Program-made: the position numbers and the translations under genes
Shown here: one piece after another, positions 96 to 13,218 of the stretch
How the letters are laid out: each line of letters opens with the position of its first letter
Position numbering within the stretch: the first letter of the stretch is position 1
The notes under the pieces: generated by a model
The model's input: only the letters and a program-made list of their open reading frames with translations
What the model was told of the DNA's origin: nothing
Databases searched by the model: none
Assembly (NCBI GenBank): GCA_023475345.1
Contig: JAMCWD010000022.1
Coordinates: 1 to 64,000 of the forward strand
From: Chloroflexota bacterium
GTDB lineage: Bacteria; Vulcanimicrobiota; JAMCWD01
DNA: 64,000 nucleotides
Direction of reading: 5' to 3'

Positions 96-1064
96 TTATT
101 TATTATTTTTACCGGCTATAAGGTATTGCTGGCTGATCTCGGAGGCTTCAGGAGGAGCTTTCTGGGCTTTGCTTGCCTTCAGAGTGCCGATAGCGCCTGC
201 TATCCCGCCGATTGCCCCGCCGATTGCTATGCCAAGCGGGCCGAAACAGATCCCTATAGCTGCGCCGGTCAATGCCGTAGCACTGGCTCCGAGGGCGACC
301 TTGGTTTTTGTACCGAGGCCTTTGGGGCCGATATGTTTACTGATTTTTGAATATAACTTATTAACCGAATCTTCGACTACATTTCTCTGGATCTGGCGCA
401 CTCCGGGACCGAGCGCGGCGCCAACTCCGCCTGCAATTGCGCCTTTAACTGCGCCTGCAACTGCACCTGCGGGGCCGCCTATCATGCCGAGAGCGGCTCC
501 GATACCAGCACCTGCAAGCGTTCCCAGGACGATCCTGCCCTTGCCTGTAGCGGCCTTGCCGCCTATGCCCGCGGATACCGCTGACGCAAGAGAACCTGCA
601 GACCCGCCGAGGACTGCGCCGGATCCAGAGACGCCGTAAACCGAATCGCGTGTAACGGCGCGCCTGCTGCCTGAAAGAGTACCTGCTGCACCTGCCAGCC
701 CGCCGACGATTGCCCCGGCAACCATACCGGCAGGTCCCCCGATTACTCCTGCAATTGCTGCTCCTGTCGCGGCTCCTGTAACTGTCCCCGCAAGCAATGC
801 CTTGCCGAACGACTGGGTCTTTTCTCCGACTTTAACGCCGACTACCCCGCCGGCAACACCACCTGCAAGCCCTACCACCCCTCCGGAAATAAACCCGGCA
901 ATGCCGCCGCCTATCCCGGCGTTGGCCTTGCTAGGCGCATAAAGGTCCCCGGTCGTCGTGGGACGCGGCTTTCCGAGATCCTTGAGCTTTTCTCCGAACT
1001 GCCTGACCTTGTCCCCGAGAGTCTGGGGCGGTTTATTGGCTATCCTGTTGATGTTATTATTCAT
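96..1064 (-). CDS. Glycine-zipper-rich protein, 322 residues
   Basis: The protein is almost entirely Gly/Ala helical hairpins. At least six stretches with GxxxG spacing are visible, roughly residues 48-80, 85-125, 145-170, 180-220, 255-290, separated by short basic linkers such as the one near residues 130-140. Such glycine-zipper segments pack closely and often insert into membranes or form oligomers. There is no classical signal peptide: the N-terminus is polar and Pro/Lys-rich for about 45 residues. The start is supported by an AGGA-type site 7-10 bases upstream. It is the last gene of three tandem, same-strand glycine-zipper genes and is followed by a terminator. A membrane-active or pore-forming role is an inference from composition only; no enzyme motif is present. 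Confidence 0.75.
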   Translation of the reverse strand: MNNNINRIANKPPQTLGDKVRQFGEKLKDLGKPRPTTTGDLYAPSKANAGIGGGIAGFISGGVVGLAGGVAGGVVGVKVGEKTQSFGKALLAGTVTGAATGAAIAGVIGGPAGMVAGAIVGGLAGAAGTLSGSRRAVTRDSVYGVSGSGAVLGGSAGSLASAVSAGIGGKAATGKGRIVLGTLAGAGIGAALGMIGGPAGAVAGAVKGAIAGGVGAALGPGVRQIQRNVVEDSVNKLYSKISKHIGPKGLGTKTKVALGASATALTGAAIGICFGPLGIAIGGAIGGIAGAIGTLKASKAQKAPPEASEISQQYLIAGKNNK

Positions 1065-1088
1065 AATCCTTATTCCTGTAAAAGGAAT

Positions 1089-1778
1089 TTACTTTCCCGT
1101 AGCCAGCTTGTGCAGAAGTCCGACGGCTATGCCGCCTGCCACACCGCCGACACCGCCGAGGATAGCGCCGCCGATTGCCCCGGAAGTCGGGCCGAAACGC
1201 TGGCTTGAAATATCCTTGGTAACGGTCTGCATCTTTATGGTGCCGTCGGGATTATATACCGGGACATCCCTGTAAACCGGCTGGCCTCCGACAATATTGC
1301 CCGCTTCATTGATGTGGACATGATCGACGTGATCGCCATACATATCCCAGCCGCCCCACCATGATGTCGGGGAATAATAATCGCTGGGGATGTTGCCCAG
1401 GTTCTGTCTTTCCGTAATCGGAACCTGCCAGGTTTCATGGGACACCTGTGTGCTTGCAGCCTCCAGCTTGCCTGCCTGGTAGCCGACAATGCCACCCGCT
1501 ACGGCGCCTATCCCGCCGCCTGCGATGGCTGCCTTGGTCGTGAAATCCATATCGGCGGCTTTCGCCTTCATACCGCCGGAAGCTTTGCCCAGTATATCTT
1601 TAGCCCAGAAGCCTTTAATCTTGTCCTTGATCCCGGTAAATACGTTACGGCTCTTTTCGAAACCGTCCTTTCCAAGCGAAACTTCCTCTTTCCCGGAAGC
1701 CTTTTTATGCGAGGCCTTCTTGACGTGGAGGTCCGCCTGGATGTTATTCTGGTGCTTAATTCCATCTATGCGCGACAT
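1089..1778 (-). CDS. Glycine-zipper 2TM protein with FlgM-like N-terminal motif
   Basis: 229 residues. A charged, His/Lys-rich N-terminus without signal peptide carries the motif EEVSLG at residues 31-36. Two glycine-zipper hairpins follow, near residues 83-108 and at the C-terminus (about 198-226), flanking a soluble middle part rich in Trp, Tyr, Asp and His (around residues 115-165). The architecture matches the next gene upstream, so the two are probably tandem paralogues that have diverged in the central part. A GGAGG site lies nine bases before the ATG. The gene is 18 bases from its upstream neighbour and 24 bases from the downstream one, so the three are likely cotranscribed. Function unknown; membrane insertion is inferred from the zippers. 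Confidence 0.8.
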   Translation of the reverse strand: MSRIDGIKHQNNIQADLHVKKASHKKASGKEEVSLGKDGFEKSRNVFTGIKDKIKGFWAKDILGKASGGMKAKAADMDFTTKAAIAGGGIGAVAGGIVGYQAGKLEAASTQVSHETWQVPITERQNLGNIPSDYYSPTSWWGGWDMYGDHVDHVHINEAGNIVGGQPVYRDVPVYNPDGTIKMQTVTKDISSQRFGPTSGAIGGAILGGVGGVAGGIAVGLLHKLATGK

Positions 1779-1796
1779 AATTTCATACCTCCTTAA

Positions 1797-2510
1797 TTAA
1801 TGTTCCCTGACAAGCTTGTCAACGACGCCTATTACCGCGCCGAGCCCTGCGCCTACCGTTGCGCCGGCTGCAAGCCCGACAAGCCCGCCGGTAAGAGGAT
1901 CAAACCAGCCGGAATGCTTGAATTCCGGGGTCTGGTAATGTCCGACAACTTTCTGCTCGATGTCCGGACTGAAACGGTGCCAGTAACCGTCGGTAACCCA
2001 GTGCTCCTCGGTTATCGGCTCCTTCGTAATAATAGTATTGCCGTTTTCATCCACGGAGGTCTTGGTTTCATATCCGGTTACCCGCGTCTCGTAATGGCCG
2101 TCTTCCGAAACAGTGTGATCATATCCTGTAAGCTTCGGATGATTTACATCATGATCCGCCATGACCTTGCTGATCTTATCATTAGACATTTCTTTGTAGC
2201 CTGTAGCCATCCCGACGCCGGTGCCTATCGCGCCGCCTGCCGCGGCTCCTATGCCGGCGTAAAGACCTATACGGTCATCCCCGAAATCCTTGTCCGCTTT
2301 AACGGCTTTTTTTGATCCGCCTTTTGCCGCTTTGGTTTCCCCGATGATATTGGCCTTGACCCAACTACCGGCGGAAGAGAAAATGTTTTTCTTCCCGATT
2401 TCCACCCTGTCTTTCGGAGCATCGGTTTTTTCAGCTTTTTCCTTTACCATGGCTTTTGAAGAATGCTGAACCGGATGCGCCGTCTTCGCATTGATCTTGC
2501 TTACATCCAT
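1797..2510 (-). CDS. Glycine-zipper 2TM protein with FlgM-like N-terminal motif
   Basis: 237 residues from the ATG at 2510, chosen because GAGAGGTG sits six bases upstream; a GTG nine bases earlier is also open. The Lys-rich N-terminus carries PKDRVEIG (V at residue 36). A first glycine-zipper hairpin lies near residues 80-102 and a second at the C-terminus near 205-232. Between them is a polar segment with repeated Tyr/Thr/Glu motifs (two TGY tripeptides, two HY pairs) that looks beta-rich. It is the first gene of the three-gene minus-strand cluster and is preceded by a good sigma-70-type promoter. It shares its layout with the 229-residue neighbour. No enzymatic motif; function unknown. Confidence 0.8.
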   Translation of the reverse strand: MDVSKINAKTAHPVQHSSKAMVKEKAEKTDAPKDRVEIGKKNIFSSAGSWVKANIIGETKAAKGGSKKAVKADKDFGDDRIGLYAGIGAAAGGAIGTGVGMATGYKEMSNDKISKVMADHDVNHPKLTGYDHTVSEDGHYETRVTGYETKTSVDENGNTIITKEPITEEHWVTDGYWHRFSPDIEQKVVGHYQTPEFKHSGWFDPLTGGLVGLAAGATVGAGLGAVIGVVDKLVREH

Positions 2511-2542
2511 AATTTTCACCTCTCAAAAAAGAGTCACCGACT

Positions 2543-5098: not shown

Positions 5099-7102
5099 AT
5101 GCCCGGCAATAAATATGATATATTTTGTTCCATCGATATGGATAAGCTGTTGAATACGAAAAAATATTTTTTCATAGCATTGATCGCGCTCATCGCTTTT
5201 TCCGCAGGCTGCTCAAGCCGGGATCTTCCTCAAGACGATGTTGCCAGGAACGCGCCTCCCAAAATCGCCGCACCGGTAAAAGAAGCCGGAAAGCCTGCCG
5301 GAGAAGATGATTTTATGCCTGCCAACCAGGCGGAAGACAATACGCCGTGGCAGATCCGTGAGGATCTCCTGGTTCAGGTATCAGCGAAGGTGCTCGACGA
5401 AAAACAGTTGAACGACGCCTGTTTCCTGATAAAATCATTGAATGATAAAAACTCTAAAATAAGGGCCGATGCCGCATGGGGCCTGGGGAAGATTAAAGAA
5501 AAAAAAGCCGTCGAATCGATTATTGCGGCGCTGGAAGATGAAGATGCCGAAGTAAGAAACATGGCCGCATGGGCGCTCGGCAGGATGCCTGACAAAAGAT
5601 CAGTCATGCCGCTGATAGCGCGCCTCAAGGATGAAAATTCCGAAGTCCGCCTGAGAGCCGTCGAGGCGCTACACTACATCAGGGATCCGCGTGCCGTGCT
5701 TCCTATCATCGAAATGCTCAGGGACAAATCGCCCGATGTCAGGAGGTGGACTGCCTGCGCATTGGGGGTAATGAATGACAGCCGGGCGGTCGGGCCTATG
5801 ACGGCAACGCTTGAAGACGAAGACTGGTATGTACGCAGGATGTCAGCCGATGCCCTGGGCAATATAAACGACCCGGCGGTTGTCCCGGCGCTCATAAAAC
5901 ATCTCCAGGATAACCACCTTATGGTCAGGATGTGGTCGGCATGGGCGCTCGGCGCAATAAACGACTACCGGGCCATAAACCCCCTGATCAAGGCTCTTAA
6001 TGACGAGGACTACAGTGTACGCAGAGAAGCCGTGGAAGCCCTTGGGAATATCGGCAGCCCGGCAGCCGTCCCCGCATTGATATCGGCCCTTGGAAAAGAG
6101 CATGAAAGGGTTCGGGTGGAGGCCGCAAGATCTCTGGCGTGGATACGGGATAAGAGAGCGGTAGAGCCACTCCTGTCCGCCCTAAAAGATAAAAGTTCGA
6201 GAGTCCGTAACGAAGCGGCGATAGCCCTGGGCAAATTCGATGACCCGGCGGCTGAAAAGGCATTGGTTGAATATTCCAAAGTTCAAAATTCAAAAGTTGA
6301 AAAACCTGATGAGCCGGATCTTGCAAAAAACGGAAGCGCTATAGAATCTTTAAAAACAGCCCTTAAAAACGAGAACCCTTATATAAGGAGAAAAGCCGTC
6401 GAAGAACTGGGCGGGTTGAAAGACAGCCGTACCGTTGATTTGCTGGTTAAGGCGCTCGGCGACCGGCACACAAGGGACGAGGCGGAGCTTGTCGTTGAAG
6501 ACCTGGGAGGGGCGGCGGTCCCGGCCTTAATCGAAGCATTGAAAAACGACGATTACGGTGTCCGCCAGAGAGCCGCAAGGGCGCTGGGAGATATCAGGGA
6601 CAAGCGCGCGGTGGAGCCTCTTATAACCGCTGCAGGGAAAGACTTTGAAGGCCCTGTCCGGTTTTGGTCGGTACGGGCGCTCGGCCTGATCGGGGACAGG
6701 CGGTCGGTCGGGACGCTTGTCCTGGCGCTTAAAAATGACTGGGGACCCCATGTCCGCAGGGAAGCGGCAAGATCCCTGGGATTGATAGGCGACAAGCAGG
6801 CCGTGGAACCTTTAATGGAAGCTCTTCAAAATGACAAAGAAGCACATGTCCGCAGGGAAGCGGCAAGGGCGCTGGGCTTTATAGGAGACAAACGCGCCGT
6901 CCCGGCGCTGATTGAAGCATTGAATTACAGGGAGCCGCGCGCCCGGAGAGAAGCGGTTAAGGCCCTGGGCCGCTTGAATGATAAAAGAGCGGTTGAGCCT
7001 TTGAAAAAATTACTGAACGATGAAAATCAAGAAGTGCTTATCATTGTAGTATTTGAATCGCTTAAAATAATAACGGGCAGAGATTTCGCCCCGGAAAAAT
7101 AA
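5099..7102 (+). CDS. HEAT-repeat lipoprotein with about 17 repeats
   Basis: The first 35 residues look like a lipoprotein signal (hydrophobic stretch ending SAGC, with Ser rather than Leu at -3), so the protein is probably exported and lipid-anchored; start at 5099 or at the ATG at 5138 is open, both giving the same mature form. The remainder is a solenoid of about 17 repeats of roughly 31 residues with the PBS-lyase HEAT consensus (AVEPLIxALxDxxxxVRxxAAxALGxIxD). The array is broken once around residues 392-416 by a polar linker, dividing it into about ten and eight repeats, the second starting with weaker copies. Such solenoids bind other proteins. It converges with the GH57 gene, 16 bases apart. 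Partner unknown. Confidence 0.85.
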   Translation: MPGNKYDIFCSIDMDKLLNTKKYFFIALIALIAFSAGCSSRDLPQDDVARNAPPKIAAPVKEAGKPAGEDDFMPANQAEDNTPWQIREDLLVQVSAKVLDEKQLNDACFLIKSLNDKNSKIRADAAWGLGKIKEKKAVESIIAALEDEDAEVRNMAAWALGRMPDKRSVMPLIARLKDENSEVRLRAVEALHYIRDPRAVLPIIEMLRDKSPDVRRWTACALGVMNDSRAVGPMTATLEDEDWYVRRMSADALGNINDPAVVPALIKHLQDNHLMVRMWSAWALGAINDYRAINPLIKALNDEDYSVRREAVEALGNIGSPAAVPALISALGKEHERVRVEAARSLAWIRDKRAVEPLLSALKDKSSRVRNEAAIALGKFDDPAAEKALVEYSKVQNSKVEKPDEPDLAKNGSAIESLKTALKNENPYIRRKAVEELGGLKDSRTVDLLVKALGDRHTRDEAELVVEDLGGAAVPALIEALKNDDYGVRQRAARALGDIRDKRAVEPLITAAGKDFEGPVRFWSVRALGLIGDRRSVGTLVLALKNDWGPHVRREAARSLGLIGDKQAVEPLMEALQNDKEAHVRREAARALGFIGDKRAVPALIEALNYREPRARREAVKALGRLNDKRAVEPLKKLLNDENQEVLIIVVFESLKIITGRDFAPEK

Positions 7103-7118
7103 AGCAGTGATGAGATTT

Positions 7119-9590
7119 TTACGGGATCGGGACAGGGATGGGGAGGATAACGGCTTTTCTGCCGCCGGTACCGGGCTCGTAGCCGCTCAGGACTTTCTCC
7201 TGGATGCCGCGCTTTTTATAGAGCAGGTCGTAAACTCTGGGACAGTTGACATCACCGCCGCCGCCTGCCCAACGGCTCCTGTTTTTCCCGATCTCGCGGT
7301 AATAGTCGTTCATGCTGAAGCCGTCCATTGAACCTATCATAACGTAGTGGTTCCATGTCTTTCCCCCGGGGCTGCCGATAATATCGAGGGGGACGGCTAC
7401 CATAACCTGTTTTCTTTCCGGGTTCGACCATGTTTTTACATAGTACGGGTATTCCCTCCCTTTTGCCGAGGCCAGGAATTGGCCGGTATCGGGCCAGCCG
7501 TTTGCCCGGATAAAATAATTCCAGGGGTTCCTGGGAGAAAATTTTACGTTTGATCCCGGTTCAAAGGTAGTGGTCCTCCCGCCTTCTTCACCGGTGGATA
7601 AATAAATATTGATCAGCGGGTGAGAAAATCCCAGGGGGCCGTACCAGGGGTTTTTCACATCTCCGAATGTAAGCCTCATGACCATCCAGTCAGGCACTAC
7701 GAAAACTTCGTACCGGACGAGATCCAGCAAATCCCGGTATGGCTTGAAGCTGGGGTCGGTCGGGTAAGTATAAGTTCCTGGGCCGTAGTCGTCCCCGACG
7801 GGGTCTTCCATGACGAAATCGGGGATCCCGGGAAGAGAGATCTCTTCCTTATCTTCGCTTTCCGCAGGAGGGGTAACTATCGGCCGGACCAGGTAATCCG
7901 GCGGCTTCTCGCCCAGTGCCAGGTACACGTTCCTGAGATGCGTTCTGAAAATATTATCGAACGGGAGCGCGTCGGGATAGGGGGTGGAATCGAACCACCA
8001 AGGATAATCGCTGCCTTCGGACGCATATAACGATTCCCATGCCTTTATCTTTTTGCTTTCAGGTTTCCCTTCCTGTATCCGGACCAGATCGTTCCTGACG
8101 CTCTCGAGGATATCCCATACCCTGTTTTTCGAAGGGGTGCCTATCCACCGCCCGAGGTTGCCGTTATTCCATGAACCGGTCGCCAGTTTTTTCAACGCCG
8201 GAAGCTTCCGGTTTTCCTTGAGGAATTCCGAAGGCGTAATGACCCTGAAGCGGGGATGCTCGGAAAGGCGCTGGAATAAGGAGTTCAGGAATTCCGTTTT
8301 TTCCCCGGAATAATTTTCCCATGCATTTTCGCCGTCAAGCGCGATAGTTACCAGGTGGGGGCCGGGGGACTTTTTTAATTGCCTGTCGATCTCTTCAAGG
8401 CGCCTGATAAAATCCAGCGCCGCTTTCGAGCCTTCGTATTTGCTGTATTCGAAGCCGATGAGATCTGAAAGATATTGGTCTCTGAACAGCGCTACAATGC
8501 TCTTGCCGTTTATCGTTACCCTGTAAGGCCGGTATAAAAGCTCGGGATGGAGAAGTGTCGGGCCTGCATCGCCTGTAACATAAAGTTGTACATTTTTAGA
8601 ACCTTTTAAATTGCGGGGTTCGCGGAGTTTCTTGCCCATTGTATTCTGGAGTATTTTTTCATCTGTAACCATCCATCTGAAGCCGTTATCGCAAAGGATG
8701 GGAACGACTTCGGGGCTGACCGCCTGCTCCGACGGCCAGATGCCTGAAGGGACCGTCCCGAAAACTCTCTTGTGGAATGAGCGTGCCCTGTTGACCTGGG
8801 TGTCCGCATCTTCGGGATGGCGGAACCTTGATTTCGGCATTGTAATGCCGGACTGGGGACGGCGTGCGCAGTTAGTATCGATCAGGAGCGGAAGGATAGG
8901 GTGATAGAACGGCGTCGTTATAAGCTCGATCCTGCCCATCTCCTGCAGCCTGTTGTGGAGGGAAATAACCTGGGCGACCAGTCTCCTTTGAACCCTGAGA
9001 ACTTTTTCCTTTTCCTGCTCCGTAAAATTTTCTTTCTTCTTCAGGACAGGTGTAAGTTCAGGGCTGCCGGCCGCTATCTCGGGATCTATCCAGGCAAGGT
9101 TGAACAGCGTAACCAGGTCGCGGTAATCCTGCTCGCCGTATTCTTCCCTTCTTTCGTGTTTCTTTAACAATGCCATCAGGCGGCCGTTCCTGGCATACCT
9201 GGGGACTATGAAAAAATTTTCCCTGACAAATTTTCTGTCCCTGACTGAAAGCGCCGCCGCCGGGAGTTCGCTGACCGAAAGATACGGGTCTTTTTTCCCC
9301 TTGCCGTGTTCGAGGAGTTGGACTATCAGGGAGGGGGTGAGGTTTATGGTCTGGTGGATTTTGGGATACTTCATGGAAAAGTATGCTATCTGGTAATAAT
9401 CCTTGGAAGCGTGGAGGCGTGCCCAGGGCTGTAAGATCCTGCCGGACAGGGGGTCCTGGTAAGAAGGCTGGTGCTGGTTCCATATAATACATATTGAAAG
9501 CGGGTTATCTTCTATGGCGGCATTAACACCTGCGAACATGGAAAAAATAAATATTGCAGATAATAATATACGCATCGGGCTCTTTACCAT
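7119..9590 (-). CDS. Secreted glycoside hydrolase family 57 with C-terminal glucodextranase-like domain
   Basis: 823 residues. Residues 1-24 form a cleavable signal peptide ending GVNA. The GH57 catalytic barrel follows: region 1 HQP at 40-42, region 3 WPSEQ with the expected nucleophile Glu288, and region 4 ALDGENAW with the expected acid/base Asp419. Residues about 590-810 match the glucodextranase C-terminal / DOMON-like domain seen in amylopullulanase-type enzymes (VMRLTFG, GFSHPLINIYL, WNYFIRANGWPD). Known members cut alpha-glucans such as starch, pullulan or glycogen; the exact linkage here is not predictable. GGGGG lies seven bases before the ATG. It converges with the HEAT gene. Confidence 0.9.
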   Translation of the reverse strand: MVKSPMRILLSAIFIFSMFAGVNAAIEDNPLSICIIWNQHQPSYQDPLSGRILQPWARLHASKDYYQIAYFSMKYPKIHQTINLTPSLIVQLLEHGKGKKDPYLSVSELPAAALSVRDRKFVRENFFIVPRYARNGRLMALLKKHERREEYGEQDYRDLVTLFNLAWIDPEIAAGSPELTPVLKKKENFTEQEKEKVLRVQRRLVAQVISLHNRLQEMGRIELITTPFYHPILPLLIDTNCARRPQSGITMPKSRFRHPEDADTQVNRARSFHKRVFGTVPSGIWPSEQAVSPEVVPILCDNGFRWMVTDEKILQNTMGKKLREPRNLKGSKNVQLYVTGDAGPTLLHPELLYRPYRVTINGKSIVALFRDQYLSDLIGFEYSKYEGSKAALDFIRRLEEIDRQLKKSPGPHLVTIALDGENAWENYSGEKTEFLNSLFQRLSEHPRFRVITPSEFLKENRKLPALKKLATGSWNNGNLGRWIGTPSKNRVWDILESVRNDLVRIQEGKPESKKIKAWESLYASEGSDYPWWFDSTPYPDALPFDNIFRTHLRNVYLALGEKPPDYLVRPIVTPPAESEDKEEISLPGIPDFVMEDPVGDDYGPGTYTYPTDPSFKPYRDLLDLVRYEVFVVPDWMVMRLTFGDVKNPWYGPLGFSHPLINIYLSTGEEGGRTTTFEPGSNVKFSPRNPWNYFIRANGWPDTGQFLASAKGREYPYYVKTWSNPERKQVMVAVPLDIIGSPGGKTWNHYVMIGSMDGFSMNDYYREIGKNRSRWAGGGGDVNCPRVYDLLYKKRGIQEKVLSGYEPGTGGRKAVILPIPVPIP

Positions 9591-9912: not shown

Positions 9913-9945
9913 ATATTAAGGCCGGTTGCAACCAAGGAGGACATG

Positions 9946-10332
9946 ATGCGGGCGAAAATAGATAATTTTAAGTGTACGGGCTGCCGGCTTTGCGAGGTAG
10001 TTTGCGCCGAGGCCAAATTCAAGGAATCCAATCCTCGCAAGGCGGCATTAAGAGTACAGGGCAAATTCCCTGCGCCGGGAACTTACCAGGTGAAATTTTG
10101 TACCCAGTGCGGCATGTGTGCGGAAGTCTGCCCGGAAGGCGCCATCGAGGAAAAGGACGGGGTCTATCGTATCAATCCCGACCTTTGTACCGGGTGCCTT
10201 GCCTGCCTTCCGGTATGTCCTGAAGAAGTTATATTTACGCACCCTGATCTCCGCACGCCTATAAAATGCGATTGGTGCGGAGAGTGCATGGTAGCCTGCC
10301 CCCGGCGCGTGATTCGCCTGAAGAACAGCTAG
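9946..10332 (+). CDS. Four-cluster ferredoxin-type iron-sulfur protein
   Basis: 128 residues from the second of two adjacent ATGs, preferred because AAGGAGG is then five bases away. The protein has four complete CxxCxxCxxxC sets (16 cysteines), enough for four [4Fe-4S] clusters, three of them followed by Pro as in bacterial ferredoxins. This resembles the polyferredoxin subunits found next to AOR-family enzymes and in hydrogenase or formate-lyase complexes, where they carry electrons between the catalytic subunit and a partner. It lies ten bases before the AOR-family gene, so the two products probably form a complex. The partner has lost its own cluster ligands, which makes the electron route unclear. 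Confidence 0.9.
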   Translation: MRAKIDNFKCTGCRLCEVVCAEAKFKESNPRKAALRVQGKFPAPGTYQVKFCTQCGMCAEVCPEGAIEEKDGVYRINPDLCTGCLACLPVCPEEVIFTHPDLRTPIKCDWCGECMVACPRRVIRLKNS

Positions 10333-10342
10333 GAGGATTAAA

Positions 10343-12160
10343 ATGTACGGATACGGCGGAACAATTCTTCGTATAAATTTAACGACAGGGACGATTGTTA
10401 AAGAGCCTCTTTCGGAAGACATGATCCGGCAGAATATAGGCGGAAGAGGGTTTAATGCAGCATTGCTCTTTTCGGAAACCAAAGAGGGCTGTGACCCGCT
10501 CGGCGCCGATAACAAGCTCATAATCGCTACAGGACCTCTTACGGGAACTTCGATCCCCTCTTCGGGCAATGCTGTTTTTTCATCGATTTCTCCTCTTACC
10601 GGCGGGTACGGGGAAGCCGTGCTTTCGGGACATTTCGGGCCTGAGGTAAAGTATGCGGGCTACGATGTTGTCTTGATTGAGGGGAAAGCTGATGTCCCAA
10701 GCTACATCTTCATCGACGACGAAAAAGTGGAAATAAGAGACGCCTCAGCCTACTGGGGGAAAGGTTGTATCCAGGCGGAAACGTTCTTGAAAATATCCCT
10801 GGGTGAAAAGTTCCAGATGGTTTGCATCGGGCCTGCGGGGGAAAATAAAGTAAGCTTCGCTACAATATCTCATAATTACGGGGTACTGGCGGGCCGTTGC
10901 GGCCTGGGCGCCGTGATGGGAAGCAAAAATCTGAAGGCCGTCGCAGTCAGGGGAAACGGTGGCGTCAAGCATGCCAACCCGGATTCATTCATAAAAATTT
11001 CACGCGAGATGCACCACGACATGGTCAAGCATCCCGAGCTTAAAGAGTGGCAGGATTTCGGCACCGCAAGGTGGCTTGCATGGGCCAACGAGCACGGCGC
11101 TCTTCCGACAAACAACTTTTATACAGGTTCCTTTGAAGGTGTCGAAGGGATAACTCCTGAGATAATGAGAAAGCATATCGTTCTCAACGACAGGGCGGCT
11201 TTTGCCAGCGTAATGGCGCTCGGCAAATACAGCCATGTTAAAACTCGCGATACCGAGTTCTGGGTCGAAGGCCCGAACTACGATTGTCTTGTTTCCCTGG
11301 GAAGCAATCTGGGGCTCGGCAAGATACACCAGGTGGCGAACCTGACGTATTTATGCGAAGAACTGGGCATGGACCCGGTTTCAGCAGGGGGAGTTCTTGC
11401 GTTTGCCGCCGAGGCGTCGGAGAAAAAAATCCTCTCCGCCAAGAAAGCCGACGGTCTTAACCCTGGGTTCGGGAAGGTGGATGTATTCGTTACACTGCTG
11501 ATCAAAATAAGCCGTCGTGAAGGCATAGGGAACTTAATGGCCGACGGCGTCAAAAAATTTGCAGCTTCCCTGGGCAAGGGAGCAGCCGAGTTCGCAATGG
11601 AAATGAAAGGCCTTGAAGTAGGCGGTTTTGAAGCCCGCTGCTACCCGGTGGCGCTGCTTGCCTACCGTACCGGCGATATAGGCGGCCTTTACCAGCGCAG
11701 CCACAGCGTCGAATATGACATCGAAAAGCATAAAGGCGTAAGCGAAGAGAAAAAGGCCGAAATGGTAATTGAACAGCAGCATCTCCGGACTATTTTCGAT
11801 ATGCTCGGCGTTTCCGAGCTTGCATGGAGCGAACTGGGGCTGGAAATTGAACGCTATGTCGATGCTTTTAATGAGGTAACAGGCCTCAATTTGAAGCTTG
11901 ACGATTTCATCAGGGCTTCCGAGCGCGTATGGAATATGACCCGCATCTTGTGGGAACGTTGCGGGGCAAAGAAACTCGGTAAGCTCGATTATATCCCACC
12001 CAGGTGGGAGAACGAGCCCATCCCCGACGGCCCGAATAAGGGTTGTAAGTATAATGCCGCCGAAGGTGAAAAGCTGCTCGCGGCTTATTACAGGATACGC
12101 GGATGGGATGAATCCGGCAAGCCGAAAGACGATATGCTCAAAGAACTGCAGCTTGTCTGA
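10343..12160 (+). CDS. AOR-family (tungstopterin aldehyde oxidoreductase-like) protein lacking the four [4Fe-4S] cysteines
   Basis: 605 residues, full length for the aldehyde:ferredoxin oxidoreductase family. The N-terminal AOR_N domain is clear (GYGGTILRINLTTG, GGRGFNAALL, ATGPLTGT, MGSKNLKAVAVRG at 192-204), and the C-terminal end keeps the typical AYYRIRGWDESGKP. In characterised enzymes such as Pyrococcus AOR the cluster is held by CxxCxxxC plus one distal Cys. Aligning by the flanking EGPNYD block, those positions here read Ala286, Ser289 and Leu293, and the distal one, in the LGVxxL context, is Ser491. None is Cys. So either the Fe-S cluster is absent or bound differently. Neighbours are the four-cluster ferredoxin upstream and a strong terminator downstream. 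Substrate unknown; family membership is firm. Confidence 0.9.
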   Translation: MYGYGGTILRINLTTGTIVKEPLSEDMIRQNIGGRGFNAALLFSETKEGCDPLGADNKLIIATGPLTGTSIPSSGNAVFSSISPLTGGYGEAVLSGHFGPEVKYAGYDVVLIEGKADVPSYIFIDDEKVEIRDASAYWGKGCIQAETFLKISLGEKFQMVCIGPAGENKVSFATISHNYGVLAGRCGLGAVMGSKNLKAVAVRGNGGVKHANPDSFIKISREMHHDMVKHPELKEWQDFGTARWLAWANEHGALPTNNFYTGSFEGVEGITPEIMRKHIVLNDRAAFASVMALGKYSHVKTRDTEFWVEGPNYDCLVSLGSNLGLGKIHQVANLTYLCEELGMDPVSAGGVLAFAAEASEKKILSAKKADGLNPGFGKVDVFVTLLIKISRREGIGNLMADGVKKFAASLGKGAAEFAMEMKGLEVGGFEARCYPVALLAYRTGDIGGLYQRSHSVEYDIEKHKGVSEEKKAEMVIEQQHLRTIFDMLGVSELAWSELGLEIERYVDAFNEVTGLNLKLDDFIRASERVWNMTRILWERCGAKKLGKLDYIPPRWENEPIPDGPNKGCKYNAAEGEKLLAAYYRIRGWDESGKPKDDMLKELQLV

Positions 12161-12183
12161 TCTTTAAAACTTATGATAAAAAA

Positions 12184-12210
12184 GGCGGCTTTTCGAAGCC
12201 GTCTTTTTTT
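12184..12210 (+). terminator. Strong intrinsic terminator of the ferredoxin/AOR operon
   Basis: An eight-base-pair stem (12184-12191 with 12196-12203) closed by a TTCG tetraloop is followed by seven T residues. It lies 24 bases after the AOR stop codon. It also shows that the next gene does not start at the upstream in-frame ATG at 12173, which would run through the hairpin. Confidence 0.92.
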
Positions 12211-12325
12211 GCGGGCGAATTTTCACGACAAAACGAAATCCCCCTGCCACAGGATGAATCGACTTTATACGCAGGAGATCTTCCCGCATTGGGGAATTAA
12301 TCCTGATATTATCCGGAGGGACTTG

Positions 12326-12757
12326 ATGCAGGAAGAAATACAACTGTTCGGATCTCCCGTTACTGACAGGATGCTGAAAAAAGGCAGGGCGGCTCTTTTT
12401 ACTTTCACCCTTATATGGGGGATAGGGTTTTTATTATTCTTCAGGATAGTGGTTTCCCGCTACGAGCTTTTATTTACCGGCTCCAAAATGTCCCTGCCGC
12501 CTTCAGTAGGTTTGCTGCTGAACCTGGGCATCAGGCTGGCCGAGCCTGTCGGCCTGCTGGTATTCCTGATATTGATCCTGGCTTTTGCGCTCGTCCAGGA
12601 CATGTATTTCAAGGCGCTGGGGCATAGAAACCCCGACGACGCATACGTCAACCAGGATTTATGGGTACTCGGCGGCGCCATACTTTTCCCGTTTATTTTA
12701 TTCATGATCCAATTGATAATGATATTGCCCTATTACAGGGTTTATCTGCCGGGATAG
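12326..12757 (+). CDS. Small three-helix membrane protein, unknown function
   Basis: 143 residues from the ATG at 12326, supported by CGGAGGG seven bases upstream. Three hydrophobic helices are visible at about residues 22-43, 63-92 and 113-136, with a charged loop (ALGHRNPDDAYVNQD) between the second and third. No signature residues identify a family. It is followed after eight bases by another small membrane gene with the same topology, and then by the CoA-transferase gene, so the three probably form one transcript starting after the AOR terminator. Function not predictable. Confidence 0.7.
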   Translation: MQEEIQLFGSPVTDRMLKKGRAALFTFTLIWGIGFLLFFRIVVSRYELLFTGSKMSLPPSVGLLLNLGIRLAEPVGLLVFLILILAFALVQDMYFKALGHRNPDDAYVNQDLWVLGGAILFPFILFMIQLIMILPYYRVYLPG

Positions 12758-12765
12758 GGGGAGAC

Positions 12766-13218
12766 GTGTCCGTCAATAAAGAAAAACCTGTTAAGAAGTT
12801 CCCGCCCGAGCATTATATCACCCGTTTCGGCACTTTCATTGCGCTTGAAGTCGTGCTGGTTTCGTTGTGGTTGTACCTGCTCATAGCGGTTGGCTTTTCC
12901 TCGCTTTTCAGTTCCTCTGCGGCTGCTGCGGCTGCTGCTTCACAGAGGCACGCGGCTGTGAATATGCTTGGTTACACCGAATCCCTCCTGGATCCCGTAT
13001 CCATAATAATCTGGGTGGTGGCTACAATAGGCATCCTGGTTCTGATATTATTCCTGATCAAGCCCAAGGGCGAAGGGGGCAAGGGGACTATCGTTTCCTG
13101 CTACCTGCGGGCTTTCAAAAAGGTTTCGATAATTCTTTTAACGGCAGGCTGGATAATTACGATAATCAGCATCTGGATTATGAAAGCCGTCGTTCCCTGG
13201 AGCAATATAAATCCCTGA
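12766..13218 (+). CDS. Small three-helix membrane protein, unknown function
   Basis: 150 residues from a GTG start at 12766, chosen because GGGGGAG is close upstream and the preceding gene stops at 12757. Hydrophobic helices lie at about residues 20-48, 74-96 and 115-140. A run of eight alanines preceded by Ser residues lies between the first and second helices. It has the same size and topology as the gene before it, but no clear sequence identity, so they may be subunits of one small membrane complex. Family not recognised. Confidence 0.65.
   Translation: MSVNKEKPVKKFPPEHYITRFGTFIALEVVLVSLWLYLLIAVGFSSLFSSSAAAAAAASQRHAAVNMLGYTESLLDPVSIIIWVVATIGILVLILFLIKPKGEGGKGTIVSCYLRAFKKVSIILLTAGWIITIISIWIMKAVVPWSNINP

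Follow-up and report, generated by a model that had tools for sequence, protein, structure and literature searches.

Does a protein of the AOR family that has lost every cysteine ligand of its [4Fe-4S] cluster still transfer electrons, or does it serve another purpose? The question is raised by a locus on contig JAMCWD010000022.1 (GenBank assembly GCA_023475345.1), of which we analysed a stretch of 64,000 nucleotides, in the following called the window. Such a large subunit, hereafter the variant WorL, is encoded there next to a polyferredoxin (WorS). The preliminary description of the locus offered two readings, namely direct electron transfer from the pterin to the polyferredoxin, or a protein that is no longer a redox enzyme and has another role. 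The coordinates of all features are collected in Table 1. Residues of the variant WorL carry their own numbers, whereas conserved columns and substitutions are numbered according to PfAOR.

Table 1. Location of the features discussed in the text, in window positions unless another sequence is named.
Feature	Position	Strand	Basis
worL of the variant, AOR/WOR-family large subunit, 605 aa	10343-12160	+	Pfam, alignments, AlphaFold
Asn76 (K/R76), Ser95 (G95), Val181 (R182): pterin/phosphate contacts lost	10568-10885	+	Alignment; contact list of PMC10413684
Former CxxCxxxC, now A286-x-x-S289-x-x-x-L293	11198-11221	+	Alignments, codons
Asp314 in place of catalytic Glu313 (PfAOR)	11282-11284	+	Alignments
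Phe429 (PfAOR Tyr427) to Tyr450 (PfAOR His448): substitution of two second-shell catalytic residues	11627-11692	+	Alignment
Ser491 in place of Cys494 (distal cluster ligand and pterin contact)	11813-11815	+	phmmer, alignment, codons
worS, 129-aa polyferredoxin, four intact CxxCxxCxxxC motifs	9943-10332	+	Pfam, alignment
Divergent GH57 glycosidase (GH57 + Glucodextran_C)	7119-9590	-	Domain content, synteny with G012
Degenerate moaA (GTP 3',8-cyclase homolog)	L200:8633-9577; own contig C17:74635-75576	-	Synteny, alignment

All four cluster ligands are replaced in an intact protein

The columns of the CxxCxxxC motif and of the distal cysteine hold Ala286, Ser289, Leu293 and Ser491 in the variant WorL, which align to C288, C291, C295 and C494 of PfAOR both in phmmer comparisons with solved AORs and in MAFFT alignments with 100-160 relatives. 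All four columns are ungapped and lie within conserved flanks, as the preliminary description had stated. The corresponding codons (GCT, AGC, CTC and TCC) are mostly more than one base away from TGT or TGC, so that sequencing error provides no explanation. The source genome is a single draft (71 contigs, 86% complete), which might point to an artefact of alignment, sequencing or assembly, but many separate codons are changed, several of them by two to three bases, the frame is intact and independent methods agree on the ungapped placement; we give an artefact next to no credence. The protein contains nine other cysteines, which are scattered and of which only C338 is usual for its position. 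As no CxxC is found among them, an alternative cysteine motif elsewhere in the variant WorL was rejected.

This degree of loss is exceptional. Of the AOR-family sequences, 99% are reported to carry the four-cysteine motif of the cluster (FS0; PMC10413684). In the 159 full-length family members that we collected, the ligand patterns are CCCC (146 members), CCTC (11), CCSC (1) and, in the variant WorL, ASLS. It alone has lost more than one ligand.

The reading frame is nevertheless complete, and AFOR_N (250.6 bits) and AFOR_C (328.9 bits) cover its full length with Pfam scores far above the cut-offs. Codon usage is normal and equals that of the neighbouring genes. The structure predicted with AlphaFold (AF2) reaches a pLDDT of 95.4 and superimposes on Pyrococcus FOR (1b25) over 591 aligned residues at 1.4 Å (Z 56.6) and on AOR (1aor) with a Z of 54.8 (rmsd 1.4-1.5 Å for the pair). 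In this model, the three-domain AOR fold is intact.

The tungsten pocket has changed together with the cluster

Among 53 columns with a conservation of 93% or more across 106 homologs, the variant WorL keeps 47 residues and departs at six, and these six are exactly the four cysteines, Glu313 and His448, which excludes chance. A closer comparison with the 52 nearest relatives, in which 106 columns are at least 90% conserved, gives 85 columns kept and 21 changed. Cofactor-site columns, for which contacts were taken from PMC10413684 and PMC12096430 and to which we added a few flanking positions, T344 and R495 among them, are changed at 14 of 16. Of the remaining 90 conserved columns, 7 are changed (Fisher p = 1.1e-10). 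The changed cofactor-site columns are K/R76, G95, R182, E313, D338, T344, Y427, H448, W/Y452, R495 and the four cysteines. At clade-specific conserved columns, 21 of 33 residues are kept.

The pterin and Mg contacts R/K76, G95, R182, D338, D489 and C494 are occupied by N76, S95, V181, E339, D486 and S491, so that D489 is the sole unchanged residue of this set. In the second shell, Thr243 is kept and E313D, Y427F and H448Y are found; Y312 and D343 are kept as well. As judged from the aligned residues, the protein has lost its tungstopterin site and its acid-base residues along with the cluster ligands, and the preliminary description had missed the pterin/Mg and second-shell part of this change.

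Several replacements (H448Y, W452H, R495E, D338E, R76N) are polar and specific and do not look random, and Y312, D343 and D489 remain. The pocket might thus have been rebuilt, with D314, H454, Y450, E339, E492 and others serving a reaction without Fe-S chemistry or the sensing of a ligand. However, the new pocket residues occur in no relative, nothing points to a substrate or a partner, and no clear pathway emerges from the neighbouring GH57 and CoA-transferase III genes. We consider such a new function quite improbable.

WorS is unaffected and the locus is inherited

The preliminary description had correctly noted a 16-cysteine ferredoxin gene just upstream of worL. This gene, worS, ends 10 bp before worL, has kept all 16 cysteines and retains 26 of 27 conserved columns; the variant WorL is accelerated, and WorS is not. 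Its presence had been set against the lost cluster, but it is no special answer to that loss: a worS-worL pair is the ordinary layout of class II WORs (PMC13328260), and an upstream four-cluster WorS gene accompanies nearly all cysteine-containing members of the clade. WorS ends 10 residues past its last cysteine and accordingly shows no sign of the C-terminal helix by which AorA builds filaments.

In the same-phylum genome G012 a GH57 gene diverges from worS-worL as it does in the window, which indicates that the locus was inherited. The window yielded no worX (MoaD/ThiS-like) gene; such a gene is present at 39 of 54 sister loci, and since the other 15 likewise have no detectable worX, its absence was rejected as strong evidence. 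Downstream of worL, two overlapping open reading frames (12173-12757 and 12661-13218, plus strand) encode hydrophobic proteins with no Pfam match. Elsewhere in the window, three consecutive frames (96-2519, minus strand) encode glycine-zipper-like hydrophobic proteins that are apparent paralogs of one another. The frame at 5099-7102 (plus strand) encodes a large protein with HEAT repeats and an N-terminus like that of lipoproteins.

The loss is derived and known from one genome

In a quick tree built without the trait columns, the variant WorL forms a single long end branch (1.05) nested among four-cysteine, WorS-linked WorLs from Chloroflexi, Eisenbacteria, Bacillota and Desulfohalobiaceae-type genomes, although its position inside this clade is not fixed given the long branch. 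The nesting among four-cysteine proteins implies that the ligand loss is derived. The preliminary description had proposed to look for a cysteine-less clade invariably paired with a polyferredoxin. No such clade appears: the variant WorL stands alone on its branch, and its relatives in the clade generally have WorS too.

We found no second cysteine-less WorL in 149 genomes of the same phylum, nor in genomes from the phyla to which an Eisenbacteria genome (8 searched), a Chloroflexi genome (400), a Fermentithermobacillus genome (398) and a Desulfohalobiaceae genome (395) belong. Viral contigs gave no relatives of the variant WorL with either a protein or an alignment query, and genome contigs gave none with the protein query alone; in the alignment-based scan of genome contigs, relatives were among the matches listed. 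No close ortholog was found, and the cysteine-less WorL is known from one draft genome. The closest WorS found is that of G012 (186 bits, 60.5% identical). The WorL of G012 is cut by a contig end after 98 residues, before the ligand motif, and is canonical as far as it goes (K76, GDSNMGG); its C-terminal remainder was searched for and not found. Given this canonical N-terminus with K76, the losses look derived and have probably arisen once the locus was in place.

Partial departures from the canonical pattern occur elsewhere in the family. The CCTC pattern marks a WorS-linked subclade (L149-L152, L155, L156, L158, L160, L163, L165 and L169), which comes from the phylum of a Fermentithermobacillus genome, with the motif ACFACPMATGK (C295T) and T243L, whose cluster, by analogy with WOR4, is possibly 3Fe-4S or otherwise altered. 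This subclade was rejected as an intermediate on the branch of the variant WorL because the tree, quick and with a long query branch, places it elsewhere. Single-ligand changes are also seen in L135 (CCSC; Desulfofundulus genome, frame at +1462) and L065 (DCCC; frame at +3177). The AOR of L045 (frame at -667) keeps the four cluster cysteines and has a changed second shell (T243P, E313D, Y427W, H448S), which makes it a candidate for altered catalysis and a mirror image of the variant WorL. Finally, at L143 (genome G176, from the phylum of the Eisenbacteria genome G151), a sister worL carries an in-frame TAA within the CxxC motif.

Cofactor supply and selection on the gene

The genome of the variant WorL encodes MoeA and a degenerate MoaA. 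The frame of the latter is open (314 aa) and overlaps moeA, but five of its six Fe-S cysteines are lost, including all three of the C-terminal cluster; CNxxCxYC has become YNILCIKS, 41 of 94 conserved columns are changed and the score is 189 bits against a MoaA cut-off of 284. Among the 149 genomes of the phylum, 129 have a MoaA at the threshold used. The gene order gatB-moeA-moaA-moaC of G012 corresponds here to gatB-moeA followed by the degenerate moaA and then rsfS/nadD, with no moaC at this site, and MoaC was not found in the 86% complete genome. The degenerate MoaA together with the missing MoaC suggests that, as far as gene content tells, de novo synthesis of molybdopterin (the tungsten cofactor) was probably lost in this lineage.

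In conflict with such a loss, the genome contains a second AOR (contig C12) that is canonical, with four cysteines and a pocket matching that of its own clade, so that the cofactor is perhaps still available, through genes in the unsequenced 14% or through uptake. This second AOR adjoins a dihydropyrimidine dehydrogenase-like pair and dihydropyrimidinase-like and class III aminotransferase genes; the apparent pyrimidine-degradation cluster (L187:632-8733) suggests that it may oxidise a semialdehyde product. Another genome of the phylum, G005 (7.4 Mb, 97% complete; L011, L021 and L201), encodes two MoeA and five members of the AOR family, the majority of them with canonical ligands, but no match to the MoaA C-terminal domain or the MoaA protein was found in it.

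The variant WorL might still be a tungsten redox enzyme that binds a W-bis-pterin and from which electrons jump directly to WorS. WorS is intact and adjacent, the pterin residues D343 and D489 are kept and the second AOR suggests that the cofactor may be present. However, R76, G95, R182, C494, E313, Y427 and H448 are all lost, and the state of MoaA and MoaC speaks against it. Moreover, with FS0 missing the direct gap to WorS would be long: in AORAa, the Aromatoleum enzyme, FS0 lies 3.5 Å from the W cofactor and 11.9 Å from FS1, the nearest WorS cluster (PMC10413684). FS0 is the only close relay in AORAa, and its removal leaves a much longer gap. Together with the lost pterin site, this makes direct transfer the weakest reading of the protein's mechanism. 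We hold it to be very improbable. Of the two readings offered at the outset, the direct path is disfavoured, and a protein that is no longer a redox enzyme is favoured.

Such a protein might be a decaying relic without function that, after the loss of cofactor synthesis, has not yet acquired a stop codon. The long end branch would fit, and the degeneration of MoaA and the absence of moaC make it plausible that the pathway went out of use. Against a relic, the changes in the variant WorL are confined to the pocket, which holds two thirds of the losses at otherwise well-kept columns, and WorS is unscathed. In addition, simulated neutral decay to 21 departures, which starts from a sister gene, ignores indels and is indicative, produced 5.9 stop codons per run on average; every one of the 200 runs acquired at least one stop, showing selection against stop codons in worL. 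A stop-free frame with changes confined to the pocket speaks for a fold that is still under selection and for a pocket on which selection has weakened or changed. A relic therefore appears unlikely.

A putative pseudoenzyme

We suggest, with somewhat more confidence than doubt, that the variant WorL is a pseudoenzyme that has kept its fold and probably its partnership with WorS and has given up its redox role. The lineage would have inherited a typical aldehyde oxidoreductase of class II, with WorL and WorS, and then lost de novo molybdopterin synthesis. In WorL, the tungsten site would have disappeared, and with it the neighbouring [4Fe-4S] site and the acid-base residues; the fold and the intact four-cluster WorS were retained. 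On this account, the protein would bind neither tungsten nor an Fe-S cluster, its retained job would be non-catalytic, most simply that of a structural partner or housing of WorS, and WorS would act as a stand-alone electron carrier supplied with electrons from elsewhere. The pseudoenzyme is favoured by the pocket-confined changes, the stop-free frame, the normal codon usage, the intact fold, the intact WorS, the degenerate MoaA, the missing moaC, the canonical N-terminus of the G012 copy and, weakly, the absent worX. It is less certain given the second, canonical AOR and the possible availability of the cofactor. Residual pterin binding is conceivable because D489, D343, T243 and Y312 persist and the residue that replaces D338 is a Glu. 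More tentatively, and as a possibility that we would not call probable, a cofactor-free WorL might serve as housing or insulator of WorS (or contain a rebuilt non-metal active site) and, together with a cluster-less MoaA, represent parts kept after tungsten chemistry was abandoned.

Comparison with known systems

A literature search found no earlier description of an AOR-family pseudoenzyme, and the loss in the variant WorL is real, derived, clearly beyond chance and apparently undescribed. With it, one can ask whether polyferredoxin subunits such as WorS function without WorL, and what becomes of tungsten enzymes once cofactor synthesis is lost. It also cautions that annotation from IPR/Pfam domains includes dead copies among the tungsten enzymes.

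With class II WORs (PfASOR/WOR5 and C. bescii GOR; PMC13328260) the locus shares the worS-worL order, the 16-cysteine WorS, a full-length WorL and the clade; the other members, however, keep three to four cluster cysteines and the second shell, and the variant WorL keeps neither. It shares the fold with P. furiosus FOR (1b25; 40% identity) and AOR (1aor; 36%) as well as T243, Y312 and D343, and D489 as in AOR, but is without C288, C291, C295, C494, E313, Y427, H448, R/K76, G95 and R182. The CCTC subclade consists, like it, of WorS-linked WorLs of the same large clade, in which one ligand is replaced (C295T), but its second shell is intact apart from T243L and it branches elsewhere. Natural ligand loss within the family is also known from P. 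furiosus WOR4, in which one cysteine is replaced by Gly and which has a 3Fe-4S cluster, an altered second-shell Tyr and no known activity, and from WOR5, which has three cysteines and an Asp (PMC12096430). Whereas these proteins keep three cysteines, the cluster and tungsten, the variant WorL is without all four ligands and the tungsten pocket. If our interpretation is right, it would be the first AOR-family pseudoenzyme that we could find; in the exceptions described so far, a single ligand is missing and a cluster is still bound.
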